Below are positions 4,044-54,088 of a stretch of 64,000 nt of DNA, piece after piece. Location: positions 1-64,000 of the forward strand of contig CAIWMU010000023.1 of the NCBI GenBank assembly GCA_903913865.1, read 5' to 3'. A model generated the notes under the pieces. It did no database searches. It saw nothing but the letters and a program-made list of their open reading frames with translations, and had not been told where the DNA came from. The translations under genes and the position numbers were made by a program. How positions within the stretch are numbered: the stretch's first letter is position 1; the number at the start of each line of letters is the position of its first letter. This stretch comes from an uncultured Verrucomicrobia subdivision 3 bacterium. Its GTDB lineage: Bacteria > Verrucomicrobiota > Verrucomicrobiia > Limisphaerales > UBA8199.

Positions 4044-5426
4044 ATGCTAGACAGCCTCGATACGTTGATCGCTTTTGTGCTGATATTCGCGATTGTCAGC
4101 CTGCTCATTACCATCGTGGTTCAGATGGTTACCTCGCTGTTCAATCTCCGGGGGAGGAATCTTGCATGGGGGATTGCAGAGGCCTTTGAAGCGATCGCGC
4201 CGGAACTAAAATCGGGGGTGGGAGAGAAAGGCAAGCAGCTCGCGAATCATCTGCTCAAAGACCCGCTGATCTCAGATTCCCAGGTTAAACAGTATGTTGG
4301 CATGGCAAAGGCCGTGCGTCCCGATGAGCTGTTCGATCTTTTGCACCGGATCGCGGTGAGTAGGAAGCCCGGCACACCGCATGAGATCCAGCGCGACGTC
4401 ATCCATCTTTTCAAGAGCCTTGGTGTGCCGGAGAGCGTATTTGAGCTGGTGGAAAGTGAGAGAGGAAAGCTGGAGGCCTTGAGAGAGGACATCGATGCCC
4501 AGCTCGCCAGACTTCCTGACGGGCCGGCCAAGGAACAGTTGCAGAAACTTAAAACTGAGACAGAGGCGAAGCTCGGAAATGCAGAGGCCTACGCAGGGGA
4601 TGCGGCCACGCGGTGGCTTGCCCTTGGGGAGTCCGAAACTCACAAGATCTATCAAAAGTTCAAACACTGGTTTGAAACCGGGGATGAACGTTCGAAGGAA
4701 TGGTTCACAACCGAGGCGCGGATTATCACCGGCATTCTTGGTCTGCTTGCCGCGATCGCCCTGCAGCTTGACACCATCGAAATCTACAAGTTCGTGTCCT
4801 CAAATCGTGAAGTGCGCGCCAACCTTGTCGCTCGTGTGGGACCTGTCATTGAGCATGGCGAGAAGATTCTTAAGGCAAGCCCCACGGTCATGGAACAGTC
4901 TCTAAGGAATCTTGCCGGGACGACAAATGAATCCGACCCAAGCATTGCGAAAAGCGGGCAGCTGAAGGGGATCCAAATTACGGCGAGCGATACGACTGCC
5001 ACTGTGAAGGCCAAAATCCGGACCGCGCTTGCCGATGCTAAAGCTTCGCAAGCCGAGGTGGACAAGACGCTCGAAGATTTTGACAAAGCAACGGTCAGTG
5101 AAGTGAAGGCTCAACTGGCCAGCTGCAGCGTGGATTGGAACGGCCTTGCGAAGTCTTTGGACGAGACCGGTTTTGAACTGTTTCCGAAGGATGGCTGGCG
5201 TTGGAAAAATGAAAAGTGCACGTGGCAGCAGATTTTCGGCCACACAATGGGCGTCCTATTCACCACACTCCTTCTAAGCCTTGGTGCACCGTTCTGGTTC
5301 AACACCCTGAAGAGCCTTGCCAGCCTCCGTTCCAGCGTCGTCAACAACATCTCCGAGGAAAGCAAGGCGGAGCTGAGAAGTAACAAGGTACAGCAGCCGA
5401 GCAAACCACCTCCGACCGTTCTGTGA
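4044..5426 (+). CDS. Three-helix membrane protein, first gene of the patatin module
   Basis: The 460-aa product has a strongly hydrophobic N-terminal helix (about residues 6-29), a second helix near 228-246 (ITGILGLLAAIALQ) and a third near 400-420 (GVLFTTLLLSLGAPFWFN). A charged, coiled-coil-like region of about 190 residues separates helices 1 and 2, and a soluble domain of about 150 residues separates helices 2 and 3. The C-terminal 'LSLGAPFWFNTL..L..LRS' stretch recurs in an uncharacterised family of bacterial membrane proteins known to me only as hypothetical. It lies 45 bp upstream of a lipoprotein gene and is probably co-transcribed with three more genes ending in a patatin phospholipase. 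An envelope-associated role is likely; the activity is unknown. Confidence 0.8.
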   Translation: MLDSLDTLIAFVLIFAIVSLLITIVVQMVTSLFNLRGRNLAWGIAEAFEAIAPELKSGVGEKGKQLANHLLKDPLISDSQVKQYVGMAKAVRPDELFDLLHRIAVSRKPGTPHEIQRDVIHLFKSLGVPESVFELVESERGKLEALREDIDAQLARLPDGPAKEQLQKLKTETEAKLGNAEAYAGDAATRWLALGESETHKIYQKFKHWFETGDERSKEWFTTEARIITGILGLLAAIALQLDTIEIYKFVSSNREVRANLVARVGPVIEHGEKILKASPTVMEQSLRNLAGTTNESDPSIAKSGQLKGIQITASDTTATVKAKIRTALADAKASQAEVDKTLEDFDKATVSEVKAQLASCSVDWNGLAKSLDETGFELFPKDGWRWKNEKCTWQQIFGHTMGVLFTTLLLSLGAPFWFNTLKSLASLRSSVVNNISEESKAELRSNKVQQPSKPPPTVL

Positions 5427-5471
5427 GATGATTCACAAAACCATGGCGAACCATCAACAAGCCTGACCTTT

Positions 5472-6440
5472 ATGAAGATGAACAAAGTGTATGTGCAGTT
5501 CCAGCCTGTGGTCCTGATCCTCGGGCTTTGCTCGGGGCTGCTCACCGGGTGCGGCACGATCAACGGCCCCACTATTCCCAAAGCGCTGGACAGAAACGGG
5601 CTGATCTCAACTTTCTCCACCAACGCCTTTCAGGCCAATTTGAAGGAGTACAGGGAAGCGATGGGAAGGAAGACATCCTATCCACGGGCCCAGGTTTTGC
5701 GCGACCAGATGATCGGCAGCATCCGGGTGGAGATTGAGATGAACTACCGGATATTTGAGCAGCAGCTCTATAGTGGACGAGCCACCTTCAATACCGCAGC
5801 GGACATAACCGAACTAGCTCTGGCGGGGGCTGCCACCATCACGCATGGGGAGCAGGCCAAGACGATCATCGGGGCGGTTTTGCTGGCAACCAAAGGTTCG
5901 CGACTTTCTTACGACAAGAACTTCTTCCGTGAAAAGACAACGGAGGCGATCATCGCGTCGATGCAATCAGAGCGCAGTAAGAAACTCGCCCAGATTATCG
6001 ATAGCATGAACCTGACGGTGCAAGCCTACCCCTTCGAAAAAGCCTGGGTTGATCTGGTGGATTATTTTTATGCGGGAACGATCGAGGGCGGATTGCTGGC
6101 TTTGACCAGCGAGGCCGGCAGGGGGGCGGCCGCAAGCAAGGAAAAGCTGCAAATAGTGGAAGCAAGCCGCATCCGACTCCTGAAGGCTTCCGCAGCAGAC
6201 ATCAGAGCGACCGGTGATTTGACCGACGAGCTGGGCAAACTGGTTAACGCGACCGATCAGGCTGCGGCACGGGACAAAGCCCTTGCCATTTTGGGAAGGC
6301 TCAAGAGCGATGGAGTGAACGTGACTTTTGATTCCACGGATTCAAATGAGCAGCTTTATCAAAAACTGCAGGATCAGATCGACGCAGCAACCGCCGACTC
6401 CGCCCTGAAACCCAAGTTGATAAGGGCTTTTGCAAATTAA
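5472..6440 (+). CDS. Lipoprotein, second gene of the patatin module
   Basis: The 322-aa product starts with a basic segment, a hydrophobic core and the lipobox LLTGC (cysteine 27). It should therefore be exported, cleaved by signal peptidase II and lipidated. The mature part is mostly helical, with an alanine-rich hydrophobic stretch (about residues 115-145) and a YDKNFFREKTTEAIIASMQ segment that resembles uncharacterised proteobacterial lipoproteins. No catalytic motif is visible. It follows the membrane-protein gene by 45 bp and precedes the small gene by 24 bp, which supports one operon. It may bring an envelope anchor to the module. Confidence 0.8.
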   Translation: MKMNKVYVQFQPVVLILGLCSGLLTGCGTINGPTIPKALDRNGLISTFSTNAFQANLKEYREAMGRKTSYPRAQVLRDQMIGSIRVEIEMNYRIFEQQLYSGRATFNTAADITELALAGAATITHGEQAKTIIGAVLLATKGSRLSYDKNFFREKTTEAIIASMQSERSKKLAQIIDSMNLTVQAYPFEKAWVDLVDYFYAGTIEGGLLALTSEAGRGAAASKEKLQIVEASRIRLLKASAADIRATGDLTDELGKLVNATDQAAARDKALAILGRLKSDGVNVTFDSTDSNEQLYQKLQDQIDAATADSALKPKLIRAFAN

Positions 6441-43440: not shown

Positions 43441-44931
43441 CTAGCTCCCCTGACTCAGGGAACAGAAACGTTCGTAGGCCGCATCCCAAGCCTTGCCGGA
43501 CTTTGGCTCGAACGTCTCAACCTGCGTTGAGGCCCGGACCACTTCCCTCATCTGTGCCAGGGTGGATATTTCACCACTGGAGCGGACTTGGACAAGGAGG
43601 TTGCCCAGGGCGGTGGCTTCGACGGGACCTGCCATCACGGGGCGCTGGCAGGCATCTGCGGTGAACTGGTTCAGGAGCCTGTTTTGGGAGCCACCTCCGA
43701 CGATATGGATCACATCAATGCGGCTGCCTCCGAGTTCCTCAAGCCAGCCGAGCACCTGACGGTATTTCAGCGCCAGGCTCTCATAGGCGGTGCGGGCAAG
43801 GGCCCCATCAGACTCCGGCACCGGTTGATTGGTTTCCCGGCAGAAGTTCTGGATCTCCGTGGGCATGTCAACGGGACTGAGAAAACGGGGATCGTTCGGG
43901 CTGACGATCGAGCGGAGTGCGGGTGCCTTTTGTGCGAGCCTAGCGAGGGCACCGTAATCGATCTTCCGGCCTGCCGCCTCGAACGATTTCCGGCACTGCT
44001 GCACGAGCCACAGTCCCATGATGTTCTTCAGGAGGCGATAGGTTCCATCGATGCCGCCCTCGTTCGTGATGTTCAGTTCGCTGGTCCGCTTCGAGAGGAC
44101 GGCCTTTGAGACTTCAATCCCCATCAGGGACCATGTTCCCGAGCTGAGATAAGCCCAATTGGTTTTTCCGGTGTGGGCCGTGGGGACGGCCGCAACGGCT
44201 GAAGCGGTGTCGTGGGTCGGCGGGGCGACGACGTTGATTTTGCCCAGACCCGTTTGGGTTGCCACAGAGTCCCGGAGTTGGCCGAGGGTTGTGCCCGGGG
44301 GAACGATTTTTGGAAAGATGCCGGTCGGGAGGCCAAGTTTACGCAGCATGGGTGCGGCCCAGTTTCGCCGGGTCGCGTTCATGCACTGGGTGGTCGTGCC
44401 ATTGGTAAACTCGACCACTTTGCTGCCGCAGAGGCACCAGTGGAGAAAATCGGGCATCAGCAGAAGGCAATCGGCTTGGGCGAGCAAATTCGGCGAGCGG
44501 TTGTTGAGTGCCAGCAACTGGTACAGGGTGTTCAATTGCATGAACTGAAGACCTGTCTGGGCGAAAATCTCGGAGCGGGGGACCTTGCGGAAGGCCTTTT
44601 CCATCCACCCGTTCGTGCGAGCATCCCGGTAGTGATAGGGCTGCCCCAGCAGTTCACCCTTCCGGTCCAGAAGCACATAATCGACACCCCAGGTGTCCGC
44701 GCCCACTGAGACGATGCTGTTTCCATATTTTCTGGCCGCCAGGCCCAAGCCGTGCTGGATCTCCGCCCAGAGGCGGAGGACATCCCAGCGCATGCTGTCG
44801 GCCAGTTGAACCGGCCCGTTGGCAAACCGGTGGATCTCCTCAAGGCCCAGCGTGTTCCCATCCCAAATGCCAGCCATCACCCGGCCGCTTTCGGCACCCA
44901 GATCAATGGCGAGATAAACCTTCTTTGTCAT
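43441..44931 (-). CDS. rhaB: Rhamnulokinase
   Basis: The 496-aa product is a FGGY-family sugar kinase that phosphorylates L-rhamnulose. Landmarks are YLAIDLGAESGRVM (ATP loop), SVGADTWGVDYVLLDRKGELLGQPYHYRDART, THDTASAVAAVPT and IHIVGGGSQNRLLNQFTADA. The D(T)WGVD segment and the 'YHYRDART' tail are typical of RhaB. The start at 44931 (MTKKVYLAIDLG) was used; an upstream in-frame start only adds Pro/Arg residues. A strong hairpin lies between rhaT and rhaB. Its context next to rhaA and rhaT fixes the substrate. Confidence 0.95.
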   Translation of the reverse strand: MTKKVYLAIDLGAESGRVMAGIWDGNTLGLEEIHRFANGPVQLADSMRWDVLRLWAEIQHGLGLAARKYGNSIVSVGADTWGVDYVLLDRKGELLGQPYHYRDARTNGWMEKAFRKVPRSEIFAQTGLQFMQLNTLYQLLALNNRSPNLLAQADCLLLMPDFLHWCLCGSKVVEFTNGTTTQCMNATRRNWAAPMLRKLGLPTGIFPKIVPPGTTLGQLRDSVATQTGLGKINVVAPPTHDTASAVAAVPTAHTGKTNWAYLSSGTWSLMGIEVSKAVLSKRTSELNITNEGGIDGTYRLLKNIMGLWLVQQCRKSFEAAGRKIDYGALARLAQKAPALRSIVSPNDPRFLSPVDMPTEIQNFCRETNQPVPESDGALARTAYESLALKYRQVLGWLEELGGSRIDVIHIVGGGSQNRLLNQFTADACQRPVMAGPVEATALGNLLVQVRSSGEISTLAQMREVVRASTQVETFEPKSGKAWDAAYERFCSLSQGS

Positions 44932-44953
44932 AGCGTCCGCGTGGTTTTCAACT

Positions 44954-44975
44954 GCCCGCCGCCGGGGCGGCGGGC
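44954..44975 (-). promoter_or_regulatory. Intercistronic hairpin between rhaT and rhaB
   Basis: GCCCGCCGCC and GGCGGCGGGC form a stem of at least 9 bp with a 4-base effective loop. There is no T-tract on the minus strand, so it is not a typical terminator. It is more likely an mRNA stability or processing element that sets the relative amounts of RhaT and RhaB (inference). Confidence 0.5.
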
Positions 44976-45009
44976 TCTTCACAGCGTAGATTGTGTGTGA
45001 GGTTACTTC

Positions 45010-46182
45010 TTAGTGCCCCTCGCCCATGGCGCTCTTCAGCCAGGTGCCGAAACCGATGACGATTGTGGAAACGATGAGGGTGGCGATGCCGGCGGCGATG
45101 AGCCCGTGGGCCTTCTTGCTGGAGCCCTTCCACTCATGGAATATCCAGCCCCACATGGTGCTGAAGATGATGATGCTGGCCATGTGGAGGGTCCAACTGG
45201 CGAACCCGTATTTGCCCATCTGGGTTTCACCCATTGTATAGAAGAAGAACTGCAGATACCACGTCGTGCCCGCGAGGGCCGAGAGCAGGTAATTGCGGAG
45301 CATGGGGGCATTCTGGTCGGTATCGGGCCGGGTGGCCTTGGCCGGGGCCGATGCTCCCTCACCCACGGGGGCGGTGAGATTCAAGTGCTCCGGCTTGATT
45401 TTGGAAACGAAATACTGGTAGCCAGTTCCATTCTTGATGTTCAGGAACACGCACCAAATGAAATTGGTGGTGAACCCGCCCAGCAGCACCACCACGAGTT
45501 TGGGGAGGCCAGTCCATAAGGTTGATGTTCCGGCCGCCTTGGAAGCTTCGCCGATGGGGTTGCCAGCGGTAAGGGCAAAGGCGAAACAGGCACTCATAAT
45601 GCCGGAGAAGGTCGCCACGAGGATCCCCTTCCTGAAATTGAACTCTGCGATCGACTGCTTTTTCTGGGCCTCAGGCATTTCACGTTCCTTTGTGAGACCG
45701 GCCATTGCCGCGATCAGGATGCCCACCAGACAGACGAACACGCCCGCGAGCGTGACCAAACCGGCTGTGGAGCCCACAATGTCACCGAGGCTGGATTCCA
45801 CGGGAATGCTGCTGTTGAGGCTCTTGGCGATCGGCGGCACGAGCGTGCCGAAAGCGGCGCAGTAGCCGAGGGCGACGCCCATCCCGAGAGACATCCCGAG
45901 GTAGCGCATCGTCAGGCCGAAGGTCAACCCGCCAAGTCCCCACATGGCACCAAAGAAGTAGGTCCACCAGAGGGTTCCCCACTGCTGCTGGCGCAGGACG
46001 CCCACCAGGTCGTTGGAAAGGATGGAGGCCATGAGCCACGGGGCGATGATCCAGGAGAAAAAGCCGCCCACGAGCCAGTAAACCTCCCAGGACCACTTGC
46101 GCACCCCCTTGTAGGGGACGTAGAAACTCCCGGAGGCAAGACCGCCGAGCCAGTGAAAAAAGACGCCAAGGAATGGATTCAT
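45010..46182 (-). CDS. rhaT: L-rhamnose-proton symporter
   Basis: The 390-aa protein has ten hydrophobic segments and aligns well with E. coli RhaT. Examples are FHWLGGLASGSFYVPYKGVRKWSWE against [26 protein letters not shown], and FGAMWGLGGLTFGLTMRYLGMSLGMGVA. RhaT imports rhamnose or lyxose with a proton across the inner membrane. It lies 26 bp after rhaA. A charged cytoplasmic loop with 'GEGASAPAKATRPDTDQNAP' between helices 8 and 9 is longer than in E. coli. Confidence 0.95.
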   Translation of the reverse strand: MNPFLGVFFHWLGGLASGSFYVPYKGVRKWSWEVYWLVGGFFSWIIAPWLMASILSNDLVGVLRQQQWGTLWWTYFFGAMWGLGGLTFGLTMRYLGMSLGMGVALGYCAAFGTLVPPIAKSLNSSIPVESSLGDIVGSTAGLVTLAGVFVCLVGILIAAMAGLTKEREMPEAQKKQSIAEFNFRKGILVATFSGIMSACFAFALTAGNPIGEASKAAGTSTLWTGLPKLVVVLLGGFTTNFIWCVFLNIKNGTGYQYFVSKIKPEHLNLTAPVGEGASAPAKATRPDTDQNAPMLRNYLLSALAGTTWYLQFFFYTMGETQMGKYGFASWTLHMASIIIFSTMWGWIFHEWKGSSKKAHGLIAAGIATLIVSTIVIGFGTWLKSAMGEGH

Positions 46183-46208: not shown

Positions 46209-47477
46209 TCAAGCCCGTTTGGAGAGGACGGCGGCTTCGTATTGTTTGATTGTTGCCAGCCAGGTTTCGGCCGCAGGGACGTTTTGGGTGAGACAGTAAT
46301 AATCCCAAACCGCGCCGAACGGCAGCATTTTGGAATCCTCAAGGAGGGCCAGCCTGGAGGTGTAATCCCCCGCCCCCTCGGCCTCCTGTAGCTTTTCAAT
46401 CGGCGACGCCAGTGCCAGCAGGAGAGCCTTCACCATGTTGCGGGCTCCGATCACCCAGGCAGCAACGCGGTTGATGCTGGCATCAAAGTAGTCCAAGCCG
46501 ATCCTGACACGGTCGGTGTAGCCGCCCCAAACAATTTCCTGGGCAATGGCCTGCAAATCATCTGTAAGGGTCACAACGTGGTCACTATCCCAGCGGACAC
46601 CGCGGCTCACGTGGAGGGCGATTTCCGGGAGGACGCAAAGAACGGAGGAGATTTTGTCGGCGATACCCTCGGTCGGGTGATAATGGCCGGCGTCCAGCGT
46701 GAGGAGTGTCCCGCGGTCCACAGCATAGCCGAGGTAGAATTCGTGGGAGCCGGGAGTGTAGCTTTCCGCGCCGATGCCGAAGAGTTTCGGCTCCACGGAA
46801 TCGACGTTGTGTTTGCGGTCGATTTTCTTGCGGAAGATCTGGTCCAGGGAATCGGCCAGACGCAGACGGGGCCCTTTCCGGTCTGCGGGCGTGTCCTTCA
46901 TGCCGTCCGGGATCCAGAGATTGGTTAGGCAGGTGCTACCGAGAGCTTTTCCAATGCCAGCGCCGATTTCGCGGCAGCGAATGCCGTGTTCGATCCAGAA
47001 CTTGCGCACCGACTCGTCCTGATGAGTCAGGGTGAGGCCGCCCTTGACCATCGGATGGGAGAAGTAGGTCGGGTTGAAGTCCAGACCGATCTTCAGGGTT
47101 TTGGCCCAGTCGATCCAGTTCTGGAATTGGCGCACGGTGAGGGCATTCCGATCCACCCGCTTGCCATCCATTTCCGCGTAATTCGCATGGAGGTTGAAAC
47201 GGTGTTTGCCCGGGATGACAGAGAGAGCCTTCTCGAAATCAGCGCGCAGTTCCTGAGGGGTCCGGGCCTTGCCCGGGTAGTTGCCCGTGACAGCGAGGCC
47301 ATCCCCGAGTTGCGCCCCGGCTGTTTCAAAACCGCCGACGTCATCACCCTGCCAGCAGTGGATGGAGATGGGGATTTTGGCGAGCTTCGCGAGGGCGGTT
47401 TCGGTGTCAACACCGAGTTCCGCAAAGCGTTCGCGGGCCAGGTCGTAGGTCTTTTGGATGGTCTTGTTTGAGCTCAC
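46209..47477 (-). CDS. rhaA: L-rhamnose isomerase
   Basis: The 422-aa protein matches E. coli RhaA along its length (419 aa there). Landmarks are IPISIHCWQGDDVGGFE, TGNYPGKA, LGLDFNPTYFSHP, WIPDGMKD, KLFGIGAESYTPGSHEFYLGYA, LDAGHYHPTE and HVSRGVRWDSDHVV. These hold the metal-binding Glu, Asp and His residues. It turns L-rhamnose into L-rhamnulose. It follows pduT by 72 bp and precedes rhaT by 26 bp in the same operon. Confidence 0.97.
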   Translation of the reverse strand: MSSNKTIQKTYDLARERFAELGVDTETALAKLAKIPISIHCWQGDDVGGFETAGAQLGDGLAVTGNYPGKARTPQELRADFEKALSVIPGKHRFNLHANYAEMDGKRVDRNALTVRQFQNWIDWAKTLKIGLDFNPTYFSHPMVKGGLTLTHQDESVRKFWIEHGIRCREIGAGIGKALGSTCLTNLWIPDGMKDTPADRKGPRLRLADSLDQIFRKKIDRKHNVDSVEPKLFGIGAESYTPGSHEFYLGYAVDRGTLLTLDAGHYHPTEGIADKISSVLCVLPEIALHVSRGVRWDSDHVVTLTDDLQAIAQEIVWGGYTDRVRIGLDYFDASINRVAAWVIGARNMVKALLLALASPIEKLQEAEGAGDYTSRLALLEDSKMLPFGAVWDYYCLTQNVPAAETWLATIKQYEAAVLSKRA

Positions 47478-47549: not shown

Positions 47550-48101
47550 TTAGATCACTTCGCGGTAAACATCGGGGTGGGGCCGGGAAATGACGACGGC
47601 ATTCACCAGCACTCCGGCGTCCGCTATGACCTTGCGACCGGCAGCAACGGCGGCTTGGACGGAGCCGACATCGCCGGTCATGGTGCAAAACGCCTTGCCA
47701 CCGAGGGCCATGGCGAGGCGGATCTCCAGGATGGTGACATTGGCCGACTTGGCTGCGGCATCGGCAGCCTGGATCATGGTGGTCACGTTGAACGACTCAA
47801 GAATCCCCAAGGCGCCTGTGGGTTCATCCGCTGTGTTGCGGCCCAGCGCAGTGAGTACATCCCGGTGCACGTTGGGGCAGACAAAGCTGTCTATCAGGCA
47901 ACCGTTCGCAGCTTCGGCTCCCGCCTCCACGGCGGCTTCGACCGCAGCGGCATCCCCGCCGATCAGGACCATGTATTTTCCGGAGCAGATGGAGCGGGAA
48001 AGCAGGAGCCGGACATTCCCTGCTTTTAGCATGGTGTCAGCCACCTGAAAGCCGGCGGCGATGCTGGAAAGTTCGATCAGGCCAACGGATTTTTCTATCA
48101 T
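47550..48101 (-). CDS. pduT: PduT-like tandem-BMC shell protein with Fe-S cysteine
   Basis: The 183-aa protein has two tandem bacterial-microcompartment domains (about residues 1-90 and 95-183) and fits the trimeric PduT type. The segment around residue 36, SRSICSGKY, matches the PduT SKTICPGKF region whose cysteine binds a central [4Fe-4S] cluster; here the cysteine is C39. PduT lets electrons cross the shell and partners with PduS. Its start overlaps the pduS stop by 4 nt, which supports that partnership. No BMC-H hexamer or BMC-P pentamer gene is in the window, so the shell must be encoded elsewhere, if there is one. Confidence 0.9.
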   Translation of the reverse strand: MIEKSVGLIELSSIAAGFQVADTMLKAGNVRLLLSRSICSGKYMVLIGGDAAAVEAAVEAGAEAANGCLIDSFVCPNVHRDVLTALGRNTADEPTGALGILESFNVTTMIQAADAAAKSANVTILEIRLAMALGGKAFCTMTGDVGSVQAAVAAGRKVIADAGVLVNAVVISRPHPDVYREVI

Positions 48102-49432
48102 GGTCGGGTTTCGAGGGTGATTTGTTGTGGATTGATATCAAGGACAACCGCGCGGGCGGGGCTGTGGATCGGGGCACCGAGGGCGTTGGGAGCAGGCTCG
48201 GCCAGTAGCTGCCCAGGCTGGACCTGTTGGCCCTTCTGGACGCAGGGGACCGTGGGTGCGCCTGCGCTCTGCTTCAAGGGAAGCACCAGTCTGGACGGCA
48301 TGGGGACATCCTTCAAATAGTCCGTGTGCACATCGTAGTCCTGCACGTGGAGCTTTCGAGCCAGTGCCTTGATGGGCACCCTGCGCCCATCGGCCATGGG
48401 GTGCGGTTTGGGGTTCGTGGGGCCGGTCCACTTGATGTTTTCGGCCCGCAGGGCGACCTTTGCAGAATCACACGCTTCCTTGGGGAACAGTTCCTCGGGG
48501 CATGCGTAAAGCGTGCAGAGCCCGCAGGAGCAGCACATGGCGGCCCATTGGTTCCAGGTGGTCTGGCCTGTGGCTGTGAATGCGAGGCTGCGCATGACCT
48601 GATGCGGTTCCACGGCATAGCCGAGGAGGAACCGGGGACAGAACTCTGTGCAGAAGCGGCATTGATCGCAGGCCGATTTCCCGATTTTGGCCTGTGCAAC
48701 GGGCGGCTTGAGCTTGCGCTGAATGACATGATGCTCGCGCGGCAGGATCACGACACCGGTTGAGGTCTTTGTCACCGGGGTGTCCAGATCATCGGACGTC
48801 TGGCCCATCATCAACCCGCCGAGGCAGAGCACGGGGTCATCCGTGGTCAATCCGCCTGCGAGGGCGATGCAATCGCGGTAGCTGATCCCAACGGGGACGC
48901 GCATTGTCACCGGGTGCTTCACGGCACCGGCAATGGTGACCATCTTCAGGGTGACCGGGCGGCCCTCAGCGGCTTCCGCGATGTTTACAAAGGTTTCTAC
49001 GTTGTTGACGATGACGCCCACCTGGATGGGGATTCCTCCCGGCGGGATCAAACGACCGGTGACGGAAAACACCAGATCATATTCATCCCCGGCAGGGTAG
49101 TAGTCCCCGAGGAGGTGGACCCGGACCGGGGTGCCCTTGCAGGCCTCCCGGACGGCAGCGACAGCGTGGGTTTTCTTTTCCTTGATGCCGACGATGGCAT
49201 CCCGTGCGCCTGTGGCCTCCATGGCGAGGACCATGCCTTTGACCAGGCGATGGGCATCCTCCTCCATGATGGCAGCATCCTTGTGGAGTAGGGGTTCGCA
49301 TTCCGCGCCGTTGGCGATCAGGGTGTCCGCCTTTGAGGCGAGCTTCACGTGGGTAGGGAATCCCCCCCCCCCGGCTCCGACCACTCCGGCTTGTTTTACT
49401 TGTTCGACCAGATTCATTAGGTTTTCGTCCAA
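48098..49432 (-). CDS. pduS: PduS/RnfC-like Fe-S flavoprotein
   Basis: The 444-aa protein is about the length of Salmonella PduS. Near the start is the glycine-rich AGVVGAGGGGFPTHVKLA, the NADH/FMN-binding segment of the RnfC/NuoF-like family. Two cysteine sets suited to [4Fe-4S] clusters follow: C255-x2-C258-x2-C261-x3-C265 (CDQCRFCTEFCP), and a second near C300/C301, C303, C306 and C311 (CCSCGLCTLYACP). PduS uses NAD(P)H to reduce a partner, such as a corrinoid, and interacts with PduT. Here it overlaps pduT and lies 25 bp after a URO-D-like gene. The lumenal acceptor is unknown. Confidence 0.9.
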   Translation of the reverse strand: MDENLMNLVEQVKQAGVVGAGGGGFPTHVKLASKADTLIANGAECEPLLHKDAAIMEEDAHRLVKGMVLAMEATGARDAIVGIKEKKTHAVAAVREACKGTPVRVHLLGDYYPAGDEYDLVFSVTGRLIPPGGIPIQVGVIVNNVETFVNIAEAAEGRPVTLKMVTIAGAVKHPVTMRVPVGISYRDCIALAGGLTTDDPVLCLGGLMMGQTSDDLDTPVTKTSTGVVILPREHHVIQRKLKPPVAQAKIGKSACDQCRFCTEFCPRFLLGYAVEPHQVMRSLAFTATGQTTWNQWAAMCCSCGLCTLYACPEELFPKEACDSAKVALRAENIKWTGPTNPKPHPMADGRRVPIKALARKLHVQDYDVHTDYLKDVPMPSRLVLPLKQSAGAPTVPCVQKGQQVQPGQLLAEPAPNALGAPIHSPARAVVLDINPQQITLETRP

Positions 49433-49457
49433 AAATCGCGGGTGTGTGTGGAACAGT

Positions 49458-50690
49458 TCAGCCTGCCTCGGCTGCGGCGTTGAGCATTGCGACTACGTTC
49501 TGGGGCGGGACATCGGCCATGATGTTGTGCACCTGCTGGAAGATGAAGCCACCGCCCGGCCGCCAGATGGAGACCAGTTCCCGGACGTGGTCGCGGATCT
49601 GTTCCGGGGTGCCATTGCTCAGCATGTGGCGCGTGTCGCACGCGCCACCCCAGAAGGAGAGGCGTTGACCAAAGTCACGTTTCAGTTCGGCTGGACCCAT
49701 GCCGCGGCAGGTTATCTGCACGGGGTTGATCATGTCCAGCCCGGCTTCGATCAATCCCGGCAGCAGCTCGCGCACCCCGCCACAGCAGTGAAGCATGATC
49801 TTGAGGTTGGGAGCCTTCTCCTTGACATAGCGCCACATGCGGGCCTGACGTGGCTGGAAGAATTCGCGATAGGTTGAGGGGCTGATTTGTGGGCCGGATT
49901 GCATCCCGAGATCATCCCCGAACAGGATGATGTCGATATGCGGCCCGGCGGCCCGCAGGAAGCGATCAAGATTCCTGATATGATGCTCAACCAGACGGTC
50001 CAGGAAGATGTGGGCCCGTTCCGGTTCACCCGCCAGGAGCATGAGGAAGTTGTCGTTCCGGTAAAACATCTGCCCCGTTTCAAGAAGATTGCCCCCGAAC
50101 AGGCCGATGATTGCCCGGTCTGTGCTGGCCCTAAACTTGCGGGCACCCTCCGCAAGAAGCGCTTCCCCGTCCGTCCCCCCGACGATGGGTCCCGGGGGGG
50201 AGGCAGCCACGGCCCACATGCAGTGGTCGAAGGCATCCTGCAGGGGTGCCTCGTCGCTTTCCGCATAGGGAAAGTGGTTTTGCTCGAAATACCATACCCC
50301 CTGGGGCATGCAGCCGAGGACGCGATCAGTGGCCGTTGCGTGGAAGGTCCACTCCTCTCCGGAACGCCTTGGGAGTGCCCAGACCGGCATCAGGCAGTCG
50401 GTTCCATCCGGGAGTTGCCATTCCGCCCAATACTTGTCATCCAGTGCGAACGCCCGACCCAATTCCACCGTGTCCACCTTGAAAATCTGGAGCACATCCT
50501 CATCGACGATGGCGAGTTGCTGGATGGGATCATAGACCCTCAAAGTCCGCTTCGGGAGGCCCAGGTAGTCGCGCAGCCGGGCGTAGGCCATGGCGGCGAT
50601 CCCGGAAGATCGATGCCCCGAAAGATCAATGGGCACCCGATCCGGTTCCTTGTGATCGAGGGCCGTTAGGACACGTTCACGTGAGGTCAT
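49458..50690 (-). CDS. Uroporphyrinogen decarboxylase-fold (MtaA/CmuA-like) protein
   Basis: The 410-aa protein has the URO-D superfamily signature. It starts SRERVLTALDHKEPDRVPIDL, continues with GDDLGMQSGPQISPSTYREFFQPRQARMWRYVKEK and has the Zn-type motif MLHCCGGVRELLPGLIEAGLDMINPVQ and FWGGACDTRHML. Members related to MtaA/CmuA move methyl groups to or from cobalamin-linked thiols; others are uncharacterised sugar-pathway partners. It is the first gene of the operon with pduS, pduT and the rha genes. The true haem enzyme HemE differs at the N-terminus, so a non-haem role is more likely. Confidence 0.82.
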   Translation of the reverse strand: MTSRERVLTALDHKEPDRVPIDLSGHRSSGIAAMAYARLRDYLGLPKRTLRVYDPIQQLAIVDEDVLQIFKVDTVELGRAFALDDKYWAEWQLPDGTDCLMPVWALPRRSGEEWTFHATATDRVLGCMPQGVWYFEQNHFPYAESDEAPLQDAFDHCMWAVAASPPGPIVGGTDGEALLAEGARKFRASTDRAIIGLFGGNLLETGQMFYRNDNFLMLLAGEPERAHIFLDRLVEHHIRNLDRFLRAAGPHIDIILFGDDLGMQSGPQISPSTYREFFQPRQARMWRYVKEKAPNLKIMLHCCGGVRELLPGLIEAGLDMINPVQITCRGMGPAELKRDFGQRLSFWGGACDTRHMLSNGTPEQIRDHVRELVSIWRPGGGFIFQQVHNIMADVPPQNVVAMLNAAAEAG

Positions 50691-50917
50691 GATTGCTTAC
50701 CTGTAATTTCCTATCAGGCTGCACTTTGCTGATGCCAAGGTCAAAAGAAAAGGCAGGCAATTTCCCGACGTTCCGCGTGCCAGTGAGGAATGTTCAGGCG
50801 AATCGCGGGGGCAAACCGAATGCGGCAAACGCCAGATCTGCCTGGCTGCGCTCGTGCTTCCTCTCGACTTTGGGGCCATCTCTGGCAGAGTGGGGGGACA
50901 ACAAAACCACCTGCAAA

Positions 50918-52417
50918 ATGAACCCTTTGAAATCATCGTTCCATGCGGTTGCCGCCGTTCTGGCGGTCCATGTCCTGATTGCCACACCCCATCCCGTCAT
51001 GGCCGGAGGTCTGCTGGACAAGCAGCAGATGCTTCTGGTGGACGGAAAACCACGTTTCATTCTTGGGTTGTATGAAAACCCGAAGGATGACGCTCTTCTG
51101 AAGGAGGCGGTTGCGGCGGGGTTCAATCTGTTTCAATGTGCCCCAAAGGCTTCGGAGTTGAATCGTGTGCAGCAGTTCGGTGCGAAGGGGTGGGTGAATG
51201 TGGGCAATGATATTGATCTCAGCAGCGATTCGAGTGCAAGGAAGCATCGATTGCAGGAGCAGGTTAGCCTTCTGGCGAACCATCCAGCCCTTCTGGTTTG
51301 GGAGGGGCCCGATGAGATTCTCTGGAACACCTGGTATGGGACAATCCAGGAACTCGAAAAGGAATTTCAGGCCATGAGCACTGCAGCTGGCGGAGCGGCC
51401 AATCTGAATACCCTTTACCACCGGGCGACGGACTTCTACCACCGGGGTCTTTATCAAGAGTTTCAAAAAGTGCGCTGCGAGTTTTGGGCGGCGGTCGGGA
51501 GCGTTGATCCGTTGGCCCAGGTGCGGATTGATGATGCTCCCGAGCGTGTGGTTAAAAGCGGGAAGGGGGTTGCCGGGGGAATTCGGGCGATTCATGAAGT
51601 GGATCGTGAGCATGTCGTTTGGATGAACCACGCTCCCCGCAATTCTCTGAGTGATCTGGCCCTTTATAACACCCTGGCAGACATGGCCGGGTGCGACATC
51701 TACCCTGCGCCAGCCAATCGGGCGGTGGGGCATAGCGACCTTGTGGATATGGGGCTTACCTCGGTCGGGGCCTATACGGAACGGATGAGGCTGGCCGCGC
51801 CTGGCAAGGCTTGTGCCATGGTGTTGCAGGGGTTTGGATGGGGGGATTTGAAGCAGGGAGAAGTGACGGACCACGAGCGAGCGGTTGGCATCGGCCGCCG
51901 ACCCTCCCGGCCTGAGACTCGATTCATGGCCTACGACGCCATCCTTCACGGTGCCAACGCCATCCTGTATTGGGGAACCGCCTACATGAAACCGATGGAG
52001 GATGATGGATCACCCGTCACGGGGCGGCCACGGCTCTGGAGGGACCTCCTGCAGGTGGCGAGAGAGATACGCGCCCTGGAACCGGCCCTGGTTGCCGCGC
52101 CCCTCAAACAACCCCGGATCCGGCAGTCGGAAACATGCGGGTCGATCGATGGAACCGGCTTGATCTGCACGCTGCGCCGGGTGGATGATGACTTTGTCCT
52201 GATCGTGTTGAACGAAAAGCAGGCTGGCATCCGGTTCACGGTGGAGGGCCTTCCGGGTAAGCTCAACGACCGGGTGTTGCATCGCCTCTACACCGCTGAG
52301 GATCGGGTCGTGGCGGGCGGACGGATCGTGGATGGCATCGCATCTCAGGGGGTGCATGTCTATGCGACATCCAAACGCTTTGAAGATCCAGTCGTAAAGG
52401 CTGATTCGAGCAGGTAA
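50918..52417 (+). CDS. Secreted glycosidase-like TIM-barrel protein
   Basis: The 499-aa product has a signal peptide (residues 1-29, ending VMAGG). Barrel-like segments follow: DGKPRFILGLYENPKDDALLKEAVAAGFNLFQ, NHPALLVWEGPDEILWNTW (acid pair E/D typical of a glycoside-hydrolase clan A strand), VVWMNHAPRN, AGCDIYPAP and NAILYWGTAYM. The C-terminus is a small beta-sandwich (FVLIVLNEKQAGIRFTVEGLPG). The pattern is like agarase/GH42-type proteins, but no family can be fixed. The gene is divergent from the rhamnose operon, so it may release sugars from rhamnose- or fucose-bearing glycans (inference). The start at 50918 was chosen for the signal peptide; the upstream frame is poor. Confidence 0.75.
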   Translation: MNPLKSSFHAVAAVLAVHVLIATPHPVMAGGLLDKQQMLLVDGKPRFILGLYENPKDDALLKEAVAAGFNLFQCAPKASELNRVQQFGAKGWVNVGNDIDLSSDSSARKHRLQEQVSLLANHPALLVWEGPDEILWNTWYGTIQELEKEFQAMSTAAGGAANLNTLYHRATDFYHRGLYQEFQKVRCEFWAAVGSVDPLAQVRIDDAPERVVKSGKGVAGGIRAIHEVDREHVVWMNHAPRNSLSDLALYNTLADMAGCDIYPAPANRAVGHSDLVDMGLTSVGAYTERMRLAAPGKACAMVLQGFGWGDLKQGEVTDHERAVGIGRRPSRPETRFMAYDAILHGANAILYWGTAYMKPMEDDGSPVTGRPRLWRDLLQVAREIRALEPALVAAPLKQPRIRQSETCGSIDGTGLICTLRRVDDDFVLIVLNEKQAGIRFTVEGLPGKLNDRVLHRLYTAEDRVVAGGRIVDGIASQGVHVYATSKRFEDPVVKADSSR

Positions 52418-52531
52418 ACAAGACCTATGCTGGTGGAGCATTGAGGGAGTCTCTTTGGGTCGGTCCTGGTTGGGGATAAGGGATGTCCGACCCGGATCCC
52501 CCAACGGTGCACCCCTTGCGGACACTTTCTT

Positions 52532-54088
52532 ATGATAAAAGGTATTATTCCGGTTCTAACCGTTTTCTCCGCCTTGAGCTGCGCCTGTCTGGGCGCGGTG
52601 GATACGAACAATCCGGCCGGCGGGGGCACGGCGAAGGAAGGGCAGCCGAGTGGTGCGGTTGCTGGTGCTGCAAACGGTAAAGAGATTGGGGAATCGGCTC
52701 TGGCGGGATGGCCGGAATCGATTCAAATTGTCCTGAGCAATACAGCTCCTCTAAAGCATTCACGGGGTTCCCGGCTGCCACTCTTTTTGTGGCCCGCCAT
52801 GAATCCCGGCAGGCTTTCGGAGGCGAGGGCACTCACGTTGGTCAGGGAACTGGACCGGCGCGGGATCGGGTTGATTTGCCGATGGGACTCGGCTCACTAT
52901 GAAGATTCCCTGGCCGATGCCCTCCCGGTGGCCCGCGCCCAGAAGAGCCTTGGGCTTCCCGTGGCCATTGACGCCACCTCCCTGCTGTATTCCTTTTTCA
53001 ATGGGGACAAATCGACTGCGCACATCGATATGAAGGGGGAGCCATTCTGGGACACATCCTTTCCCGGGAAGGGGGACATGGGTTGTCCCTTTGCGCTGGA
53101 TGGCCGAAAGGGGGAGATCCGGGGGCGGGTTGAGAAGTTTGTGGCGGCCTATTCGAATGCCGGATTGACTCCCGGTTTTGTCTGGGCGGATTGGGAATTG
53201 GATGGGCCTGTGGAATGGAACGGTGCCTGGGAGGCCTCGAAGCGGTGCCGCCGCTGCGTGGAGCATTCCGGTCAGATCACCAATTTCCTCCAGTTTCAGC
53301 ACGAGCTGCGCGGGATCCGATCCGAGCTGCAACGTTCCTGCTATGTGGAGCCGTTGCTGCGGCGATTTCCATCCTGTCTGGTGGGGAACTACGGCACCTA
53401 TCCCCACGATGGCTTCCGCTACTGGTATGACTACTTTGAGACGGATCAGGATTGGTATCCCGGTCTGAGGGATGGCAGGGCACTTCATCGCCATTGGGCC
53501 AACGAGTTCGATCCCGCGGGCTACACCTTCGCGATGCCGGTCATTTACACATGGTCGCGCATGTGGCACTGGTCGGGGTTTGAGAACCCGGATTACCACT
53601 GGTTTTACCCGATGCTACAGGAGGCCACAAGCTGTGCCCGGAGTGTGCGGCCCGGGCTGCCGATCGTGTCGTTTGTCCATTGGAACACGACCGTTCCACC
53701 AACGCCTCCGGATGCCTCCATCAAACAGTTTAGTGTTGAGGGTTACCAGGAATTGCTGTGGCACATGTTGCTGCGGGGTGTCAGCACCTTTTACCTGTGG
53801 TGCCCGGCACCGGAATATACTTCGGAGGTTCAGGCCCTTCATCCTGTTTGGGCTGCGGCCCAGGAGTATGGGGAATTCCTGGAGAAGGGCAGGCCGATCT
53901 CGTTCGATGTGCCCGCCAAGCCGGGAGTCGTTATTTCCGGCCTTGAGTTGAACGGGCGGGTGCTCGTGCGCCGGACGGATTTTGCTGGTTCGACGGCGAC
54001 GGTGGTCCTGAAATTGGGCAGACGCGAGTTGAGCGTGCCGCCCTCCAAAGGGAAATGCCAGGTCCTTGACCTGCGGGAATCGCGTTGA
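52532..54088 (+). CDS. Secreted glycosidase-like protein
   Basis: The 518-aa product has an N-terminal signal (MIKGIIPVLTVFSALSCACLGA), then a Gly/Ala-rich linker and a barrel-like body. Notable parts are FLWPAMNPGRLSEARALTLVRELDRRGIGLICRWD, VWADWELDGPVEWN, GNYGTYPHDGFRYWYDYFE and MPVIYTWSRMW. The C-terminal part (VISGLELNGRVLVRRTDFAGSTATVVLKLG) is a beta-sandwich like that in the preceding protein. SCAC offers a possible lipobox (LSCAC), so a lipoprotein is an alternative. It follows the first glycosidase-like gene by 114 bp in the same direction. Substrate unknown. Confidence 0.72.
   Translation: MIKGIIPVLTVFSALSCACLGAVDTNNPAGGGTAKEGQPSGAVAGAANGKEIGESALAGWPESIQIVLSNTAPLKHSRGSRLPLFLWPAMNPGRLSEARALTLVRELDRRGIGLICRWDSAHYEDSLADALPVARAQKSLGLPVAIDATSLLYSFFNGDKSTAHIDMKGEPFWDTSFPGKGDMGCPFALDGRKGEIRGRVEKFVAAYSNAGLTPGFVWADWELDGPVEWNGAWEASKRCRRCVEHSGQITNFLQFQHELRGIRSELQRSCYVEPLLRRFPSCLVGNYGTYPHDGFRYWYDYFETDQDWYPGLRDGRALHRHWANEFDPAGYTFAMPVIYTWSRMWHWSGFENPDYHWFYPMLQEATSCARSVRPGLPIVSFVHWNTTVPPTPPDASIKQFSVEGYQELLWHMLLRGVSTFYLWCPAPEYTSEVQALHPVWAAAQEYGEFLEKGRPISFDVPAKPGVVISGLELNGRVLVRRTDFAGSTATVVLKLGRRELSVPPSKGKCQVLDLRESR

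Follow-up and report, generated by a model that had tools for sequence, protein, structure and literature searches.

Why does an L-rhamnose operon encode PduS and PduT, a microcompartment electron-transfer pair, with no other shell gene beside them? The question is raised by a 64,000-nucleotide stretch of DNA from an uncultured Verrucomicrobia subdivision 3 bacterium (the window), which lies on contig C23 of a draft genome of 267 contigs (95.09% complete, 2.08% contamination). The answer favoured here, with a probability of about two in three, is that pduS-pduT is a satellite of a Planctomycetes/Verrucomicrobia-type (PVM) L-rhamnose/L-fucose compartment encoded on another contig, C133, and that it would export electrons from lumenal NADH through a shell into which PduT is predicted to be built. 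This reading starts from the observed gene content, from invariant cluster ligands and from linkage of the pair to PVM loci across genomes. The operon comprises the following genes.

49458..50690, minus strand: uroD-like gene of the URO-D / MtaA-CmuA-like methyltransferase family (Pfam PF01208, E 3e-23), which opens the operon.
48098..49432 as listed, minus strand: pduS, predicted FMN / two-[4Fe-4S] NADH oxidoreductase of the RnfC superfamily (Pfam domains, cluster cysteines).
47550..48101, minus strand: pduT, predicted tandem BMC-domain (BMC-T) shell protein with pore cysteine C39 (two BMC domains; PduT structures).
46209..47477, minus strand: rhaA, L-rhamnose isomerase (PF06134, E 5.5e-193; NCBIfam equivalog cut-off passed).
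45010..46182, minus strand: rhaT, L-rhamnose/proton symporter (PF06379, E 6e-71; NF010024 above cut-off).
43441..44982, minus strand: rhaB, rhamnulokinase (TIGR02627, 535.3 bits against a cut-off of 527.95).

The first-pass annotation had described these six genes as co-directional, with gaps of 25, -4, 72, 26 and 27 bp from the uroD-like gene to rhaB. All six lie on the minus strand, the gaps agree exactly, and the gene identities are upheld by Pfam and NCBIfam throughout. The uroD-like product also matches NCBIfam TIGR01463 (E 1e-17), with a score far under the cut-off. The listed start of pduS is a TTG at 49432, with an in-frame ATG five codons downstream at 49417. The ATG is probably the true start, as the orthologues fit it better, and the gap between uroD and pduS would then become 40 bp. 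Scans for promoters and terminators gave matches at chance level. Directly upstream of the operon, at 50693-54088 on the plus strand, are two divergent genes with listed lengths of 574 and 518 aa, both without a Pfam match.

PduS has the domain order Complex1_51K, SLBB, Fer4_17 (4Fe-4S dicluster) and, at the C-terminus, RnfC_N, which is the PduS order; among solved structures, RnfC subunits are closest to it. It had been claimed that both cysteine clusters are kept, and they are: C255xxC258xxC261xxxC265 and C300xxC303xxC306xxxxC311 provide the CxxCxxCxxxC and CxxCxxCxxxxC motifs and are invariant in 28 of 28 aligned proteins. The same spacing is found in PduS of Citrobacter freundii, which oxidises NADH, carries FMN and two [4Fe-4S] centres, and binds PduT and co-purifies with it (PMC2982820). 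PduT likewise retains the Fe-S cysteine ascribed to it, C39 in the motif ICSGK, which is invariant in 27 of 27 aligned sequences (the window and its orthologues). Over its full length the protein aligns with three chains of solved structure, 3nwg, 3pac and 3n79, the latter two being PduT. Against the TIGR02526 equivalog the protein scores 128.7 bits, under the cut-off of 250.3 bits, and is thus a relative of that equivalog and not a member. The ligand cysteines are invariant at overall identities of 54-89%, and pduT travels with pduS in nearly all PduS-bearing genomes of the samples.

Where is the rest of the shell? The window holds no BMC domain other than those of PduT, in agreement with the first-pass annotation, which had suggested a rhamnose compartment with its main locus elsewhere. 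BMC domains were found only in pduT and on contig C133, and BMC-P on C133 alone. Here one strand encodes, in order, PduL, BMC-H, BMC-H, acetate kinase, BMC-H, BMC-P, an acylating aldehyde dehydrogenase (AldDH), BMC-P, BMC-P, a class II aldolase and a 429-aa protein, giving three BMC-H and three BMC-P genes, together with a divergent DeoR gene and a GH78 alpha-L-rhamnosidase. The aldolase (4936-5997; PF00596, E 4e-43) is the signature enzyme of PVM loci, and the core set of AldDH, PduL, acetate kinase, DeoR, BMC-H and BMC-P is all present; by its gene set, C133 is a complete PVM locus. The genome has a second class II aldolase, on contig C105. C133 is assigned to this genome by binning alone; its GC content is 0.57-0.60, against 0.56-0.60 for C23, and in an AldDH tree its enzyme adjoins that of a same-family genome.

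With a complete PVM locus on C133, pduS-pduT can be regarded as its satellite. The window has PF00936 as its sole type of shell gene, with another BMC-related gene beside it, and the genome has a separate complete BMC locus, in keeping with the definition of a satellite-like BMC locus in the text of Axen 2014 (PMC4207490). The alternative offered by the first-pass annotation, a propanediol-dehydratase branch, found no support: PF02901 (glycyl-radical enzymes, PFL-like) has no match in the genome, with a positive control in three genomes. The large subunit of B12 diol dehydratase (PF02286) has no match in this genome, nor in any control genome, which makes this absence a weak one.

The 429-aa protein adjoining the PVM aldolase (L009:3650-4939, minus strand, on C133) is kept in most PVM loci of the order, with orthologues 66-77% identical to the C133 copy, and has no Pfam family. 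A weak NCBIfam match (E 0.003) and the top, non-significant folds point to ADH synthase/LsrF-type class I aldolases; the AlphaFold model is of low confidence and its fold search returned no significant match. In the model, a linker of low confidence leads to a C-terminal helix that resembles an encapsulation peptide.

Is the pair linked to PVM loci beyond this genome? Among 146 genomes of the order PduS occurs in 29, of which 28 have BMC-P, against 97 of 146 overall (Fisher p 4e-5). In the phylum sample (289 genomes) all seven genomes with PduS are BMC-P positive, against 48 of 289 (Fisher p 2e-6). Four relatives of the order carry the pair beside or inside the PVM locus (L041, L042, L043, L045), so that pduS-pduT is not confined to an unrelated pathway in its relatives. 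In L042 the aldolase precedes it with a gap of 37 bp, and L043 has PVM genes, a lactate/malate dehydrogenase (Ldh), pduS, pduT, rhaA and rhaT in one stretch, which is the arrangement of the window joined to the main PVM locus. The class contains a further family, with named relatives labelled Opitutae, in which three of six genomes have the pair within the PVM locus, and L129 and L130 encode a co-directional DeoR-pduS-pduT-pduL-shell (BMC)-aldolase series without Ldh. PVM core genes stand beside pduS-pduT in 24 of 80 named genomes, some of which also belong to the order and class samples, and in 12 of the 35 with full flanks. These named relatives were found by an alignment query; a single-protein contig scan confirmed none. 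Most relatives have the pair away from the PVM locus, surrounded by unrelated genes. PduS and AldDH show weak co-inheritance, as judged by their distances (Mantel r 0.24, 53 of 2000 permutations).

The co-occurrence of uroD-pduS-pduT with rha genes, which the first-pass annotation suggested looking for in other genomes, is seen in L218 (UBA693, Verrucomicrobia subdivision 3), where all six genes are in identical order at 80-89% identity. The uroD part of this association does not hold generally. A uroD-like gene is directly upstream of pduS only in the window and L218; in L044/L159 and L157 it lies upstream at a distance of a few kb. With uroD near pduS-pduT in so few loci, it was rejected as a general part of the electron port.

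How might the two loci work together? RhaT would import rhamnose, and RhaA and RhaB would convert it to rhamnulose-1-phosphate. Inside the shell, the C133 class II aldolase would cleave this to DHAP and lactaldehyde, and the acylating AldDH would oxidise lactaldehyde to lactyl-CoA, producing NADH in the lumen; PduL and AckA would then yield lactate with ATP. PduS docked on PduT would oxidise the lumenal NADH via FMN and its two [4Fe-4S] clusters, and the [4Fe-4S] cluster in the PduT pore would deliver the electrons outward to a putative cytosolic acceptor. NAD+ would thereby be regenerated within a PVM shell whose locus has no lactate/malate dehydrogenase. Outward flow would be downhill on the potentials reported for the Citrobacter proteins, -150 and -262 mV for the PduS flavin and +99 mV for the PduT cluster (PMC2982820). 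As relatives join pduS-pduT to the PVM locus, some such shells probably export electrons via an iron-sulphur shell protein. The broader proposal has about as much for it as against it: that a redox-wired PVM variant recurs across Verrucomicrobiota, in which PduS-PduT reoxidises lumenal NADH and exports the electrons through the shell to an acceptor that is cytosolic or respiratory, replacing an encapsulated dehydrogenase. If so, all lactaldehyde could go to lactate with a gain of ATP, whereas an encapsulated dehydrogenase would divert half of it to 1,2-propanediol.

Lactate/malate dehydrogenase is the NAD+ regenerator predicted for PVM compartments in the text of Axen 2014 (PMC4207490); in the Erbilgin scheme, as related by Ravcheev 2019 (PMC6620236), one lactaldehyde is reduced to propanediol while another is oxidised. 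The C133 locus has none. The sole Ldh_1_N match of the genome is on contig C209, and no protein of the genome resembles the PVM-type Ldh at E 1e-40. Many other PVM loci also do without Ldh, which is therefore not treated as a strict PVM requirement. Among the 93 PVM-type genomes of the order, three have both PduST and PVM-type Ldh, 25 PduST only, 32 Ldh only and 33 neither; neither is thus essential. Co-occurrence is lower than expected by chance when kinship is ignored (Fisher p 0.0004, 93 genomes). Each of the two traits clusters on the tree, and p is 0.08 in a likelihood test of dependent evolution, so that substitution of Ldh by PduST is suggestive at most. Strict replacement was rejected; the exclusion is borderline on the tree, and three genomes have both. 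G074, a PduST genome scored as lacking PVM-type Ldh, carries an Ldh of another kind in its locus. Where named PVM loci have PduST alongside and at least 2 kb visible beyond the aldolase, Ldh is present in 3 of 19.

Electrons might instead run inward, PduS-PduT supplying the PVM lumen with reducing power from the cytosol, for instance for cofactor repair or for the reduction of lactaldehyde to 1,2-propanediol. Either direction has been discussed for PduS-PduT in glycyl-radical compartments, in the text of PMC6325248, and the genome has Fe-type alcohol dehydrogenases (four PF00465 matches). Yet the PVM locus encodes no lumenal reductase or radical enzyme, the genome is without a glycyl-radical enzyme, and at the reported +99 mV PduT would be a poor low-potential donor; inward flow appears unlikely. 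That PduS serves as a corrinoid reductase for the URO-D/MtaA-like methyltransferase or another B12 enzyme, its link to rhamnose being a coincidence of the operon, is very improbable. C. freundii PduS does reduce cobalamin (PMC2982820), and an MtaA/CmuA-like uroD gene is directly upstream in the window and in L218, but uroD is missing near pduS-pduT in nearly all other loci while PVM genes recur, and it is hard to see what the shell protein PduT would do in a methyltransferase system of the cytosol.

Could the pair simply be a mobile remnant of PDU or GRM type, tolerated or occasionally used, with PduT at most changing shell permeability? Its dispersal as isolated pairs in most genomes, the occurrence of some orthologues outside the phylum, among them L194 in an apparent PDU locus, and the weak co-divergence with AldDH would be expected of such a module. 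Against this, the pair stays intact with its ligand cysteines invariant despite the spread in overall identity, is nearly confined to genomes with BMC-P and has joined PVM loci in several arrangements, which makes a remnant unlikely. The satellite of the C133 compartment, exporting electrons, remains the preferred reading.

How does this system compare with those described? Published PVM loci (PMC4207490, PMC8217296, PMC8857213, PMC5615132) have BMC-H, BMC-P, an aldolase and core enzymes. C133 resembles the fucose/rhamnose PVM compartment in its aldolase, AldDH, PduL, acetate kinase, DeoR, BMC-H and three BMC-P. It differs in having no lactate/malate dehydrogenase of the kind reported by Axen 2014 (PMC4207490). 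The genome further adds, as a satellite within the rha operon, PduS and the BMC-T protein PduT; the latter is a putative shell member, whereas PVM shells in published descriptions are made up of BMC-H and BMC-P alone. PDU compartments of Citrobacter and Salmonella share the domain order, pore cysteine and cluster spacings of the pair; unlike there, it sits with rhamnose isomerase, symporter and kinase and not with pdu genes, and no diol dehydratase was matched, in a PF02286 search without a positive control. The GRM5 fucose/rhamnose compartment (Clostridium phytofermentans type) likewise has a fuculose/rhamnulose-phosphate aldolase, PduS and PduT, the latter two in 57 of 57 surveyed loci (PMC6325248), but uses a glycyl-radical propanediol dehydratase, for which this genome has no PF02901 match.

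The main-text passages on PVM loci in the four PVM studies make no mention of PduS or PduT; within those passages, no published description of the pair with a PVM compartment was found. The pair is known from GRM5 and PDU. In the text of PMC6325248, what PduS, PduT and GrpU homologues do in GRM compartments is described as an open question. Since the PVM locus lacks both B12 and radical enzymes, and frequently also a dehydrogenase to recycle NAD+, the role of PduS-PduT should be cleanly testable in it. The questions addressed are cofactor recycling in sugar compartments and electron conduction by shells. The described parts list of PVM compartments is extended, in an organelle that serves Verrucomicrobiota on fucose- and rhamnose-rich polysaccharides.

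Several further gene neighbourhoods were seen in relatives. LutABC-like genes for iron-sulphur lactate oxidation, noticed by eye and then by BLAST, adjoin PVM and pduS-pduT genes, or lie between them, in L045 (6153-9200) and also in L153, L163, L165, L138, L147 and L148 (Verrucomicrobiota), which suggests that the lactate product may be oxidised by a linked LutABC-like system. In L052:6102-7556 and L054:10122-11582, a co-directional gene judged by eye to be aldehyde-dehydrogenase-like comes some 8-14 bp after pduS-pduT. A different BMC type occurs in two genomes of the same family, G067 and G138 (L092:9203-12507, L093:6868-10113). It combines a BMC-H gene, BMC-P genes and AldDH with a tandem-BMC-like protein that shares only 31-32% identity with PduT of the window; no PduS orthologue was found in either genome. 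In a Syntrophobacterales-labelled contig (L194:148-11868, GWC2_56_13), orthologous pduS-pduT genes end what appears by eye to be a PDU-type locus, hinting that the module may move between BMC types.
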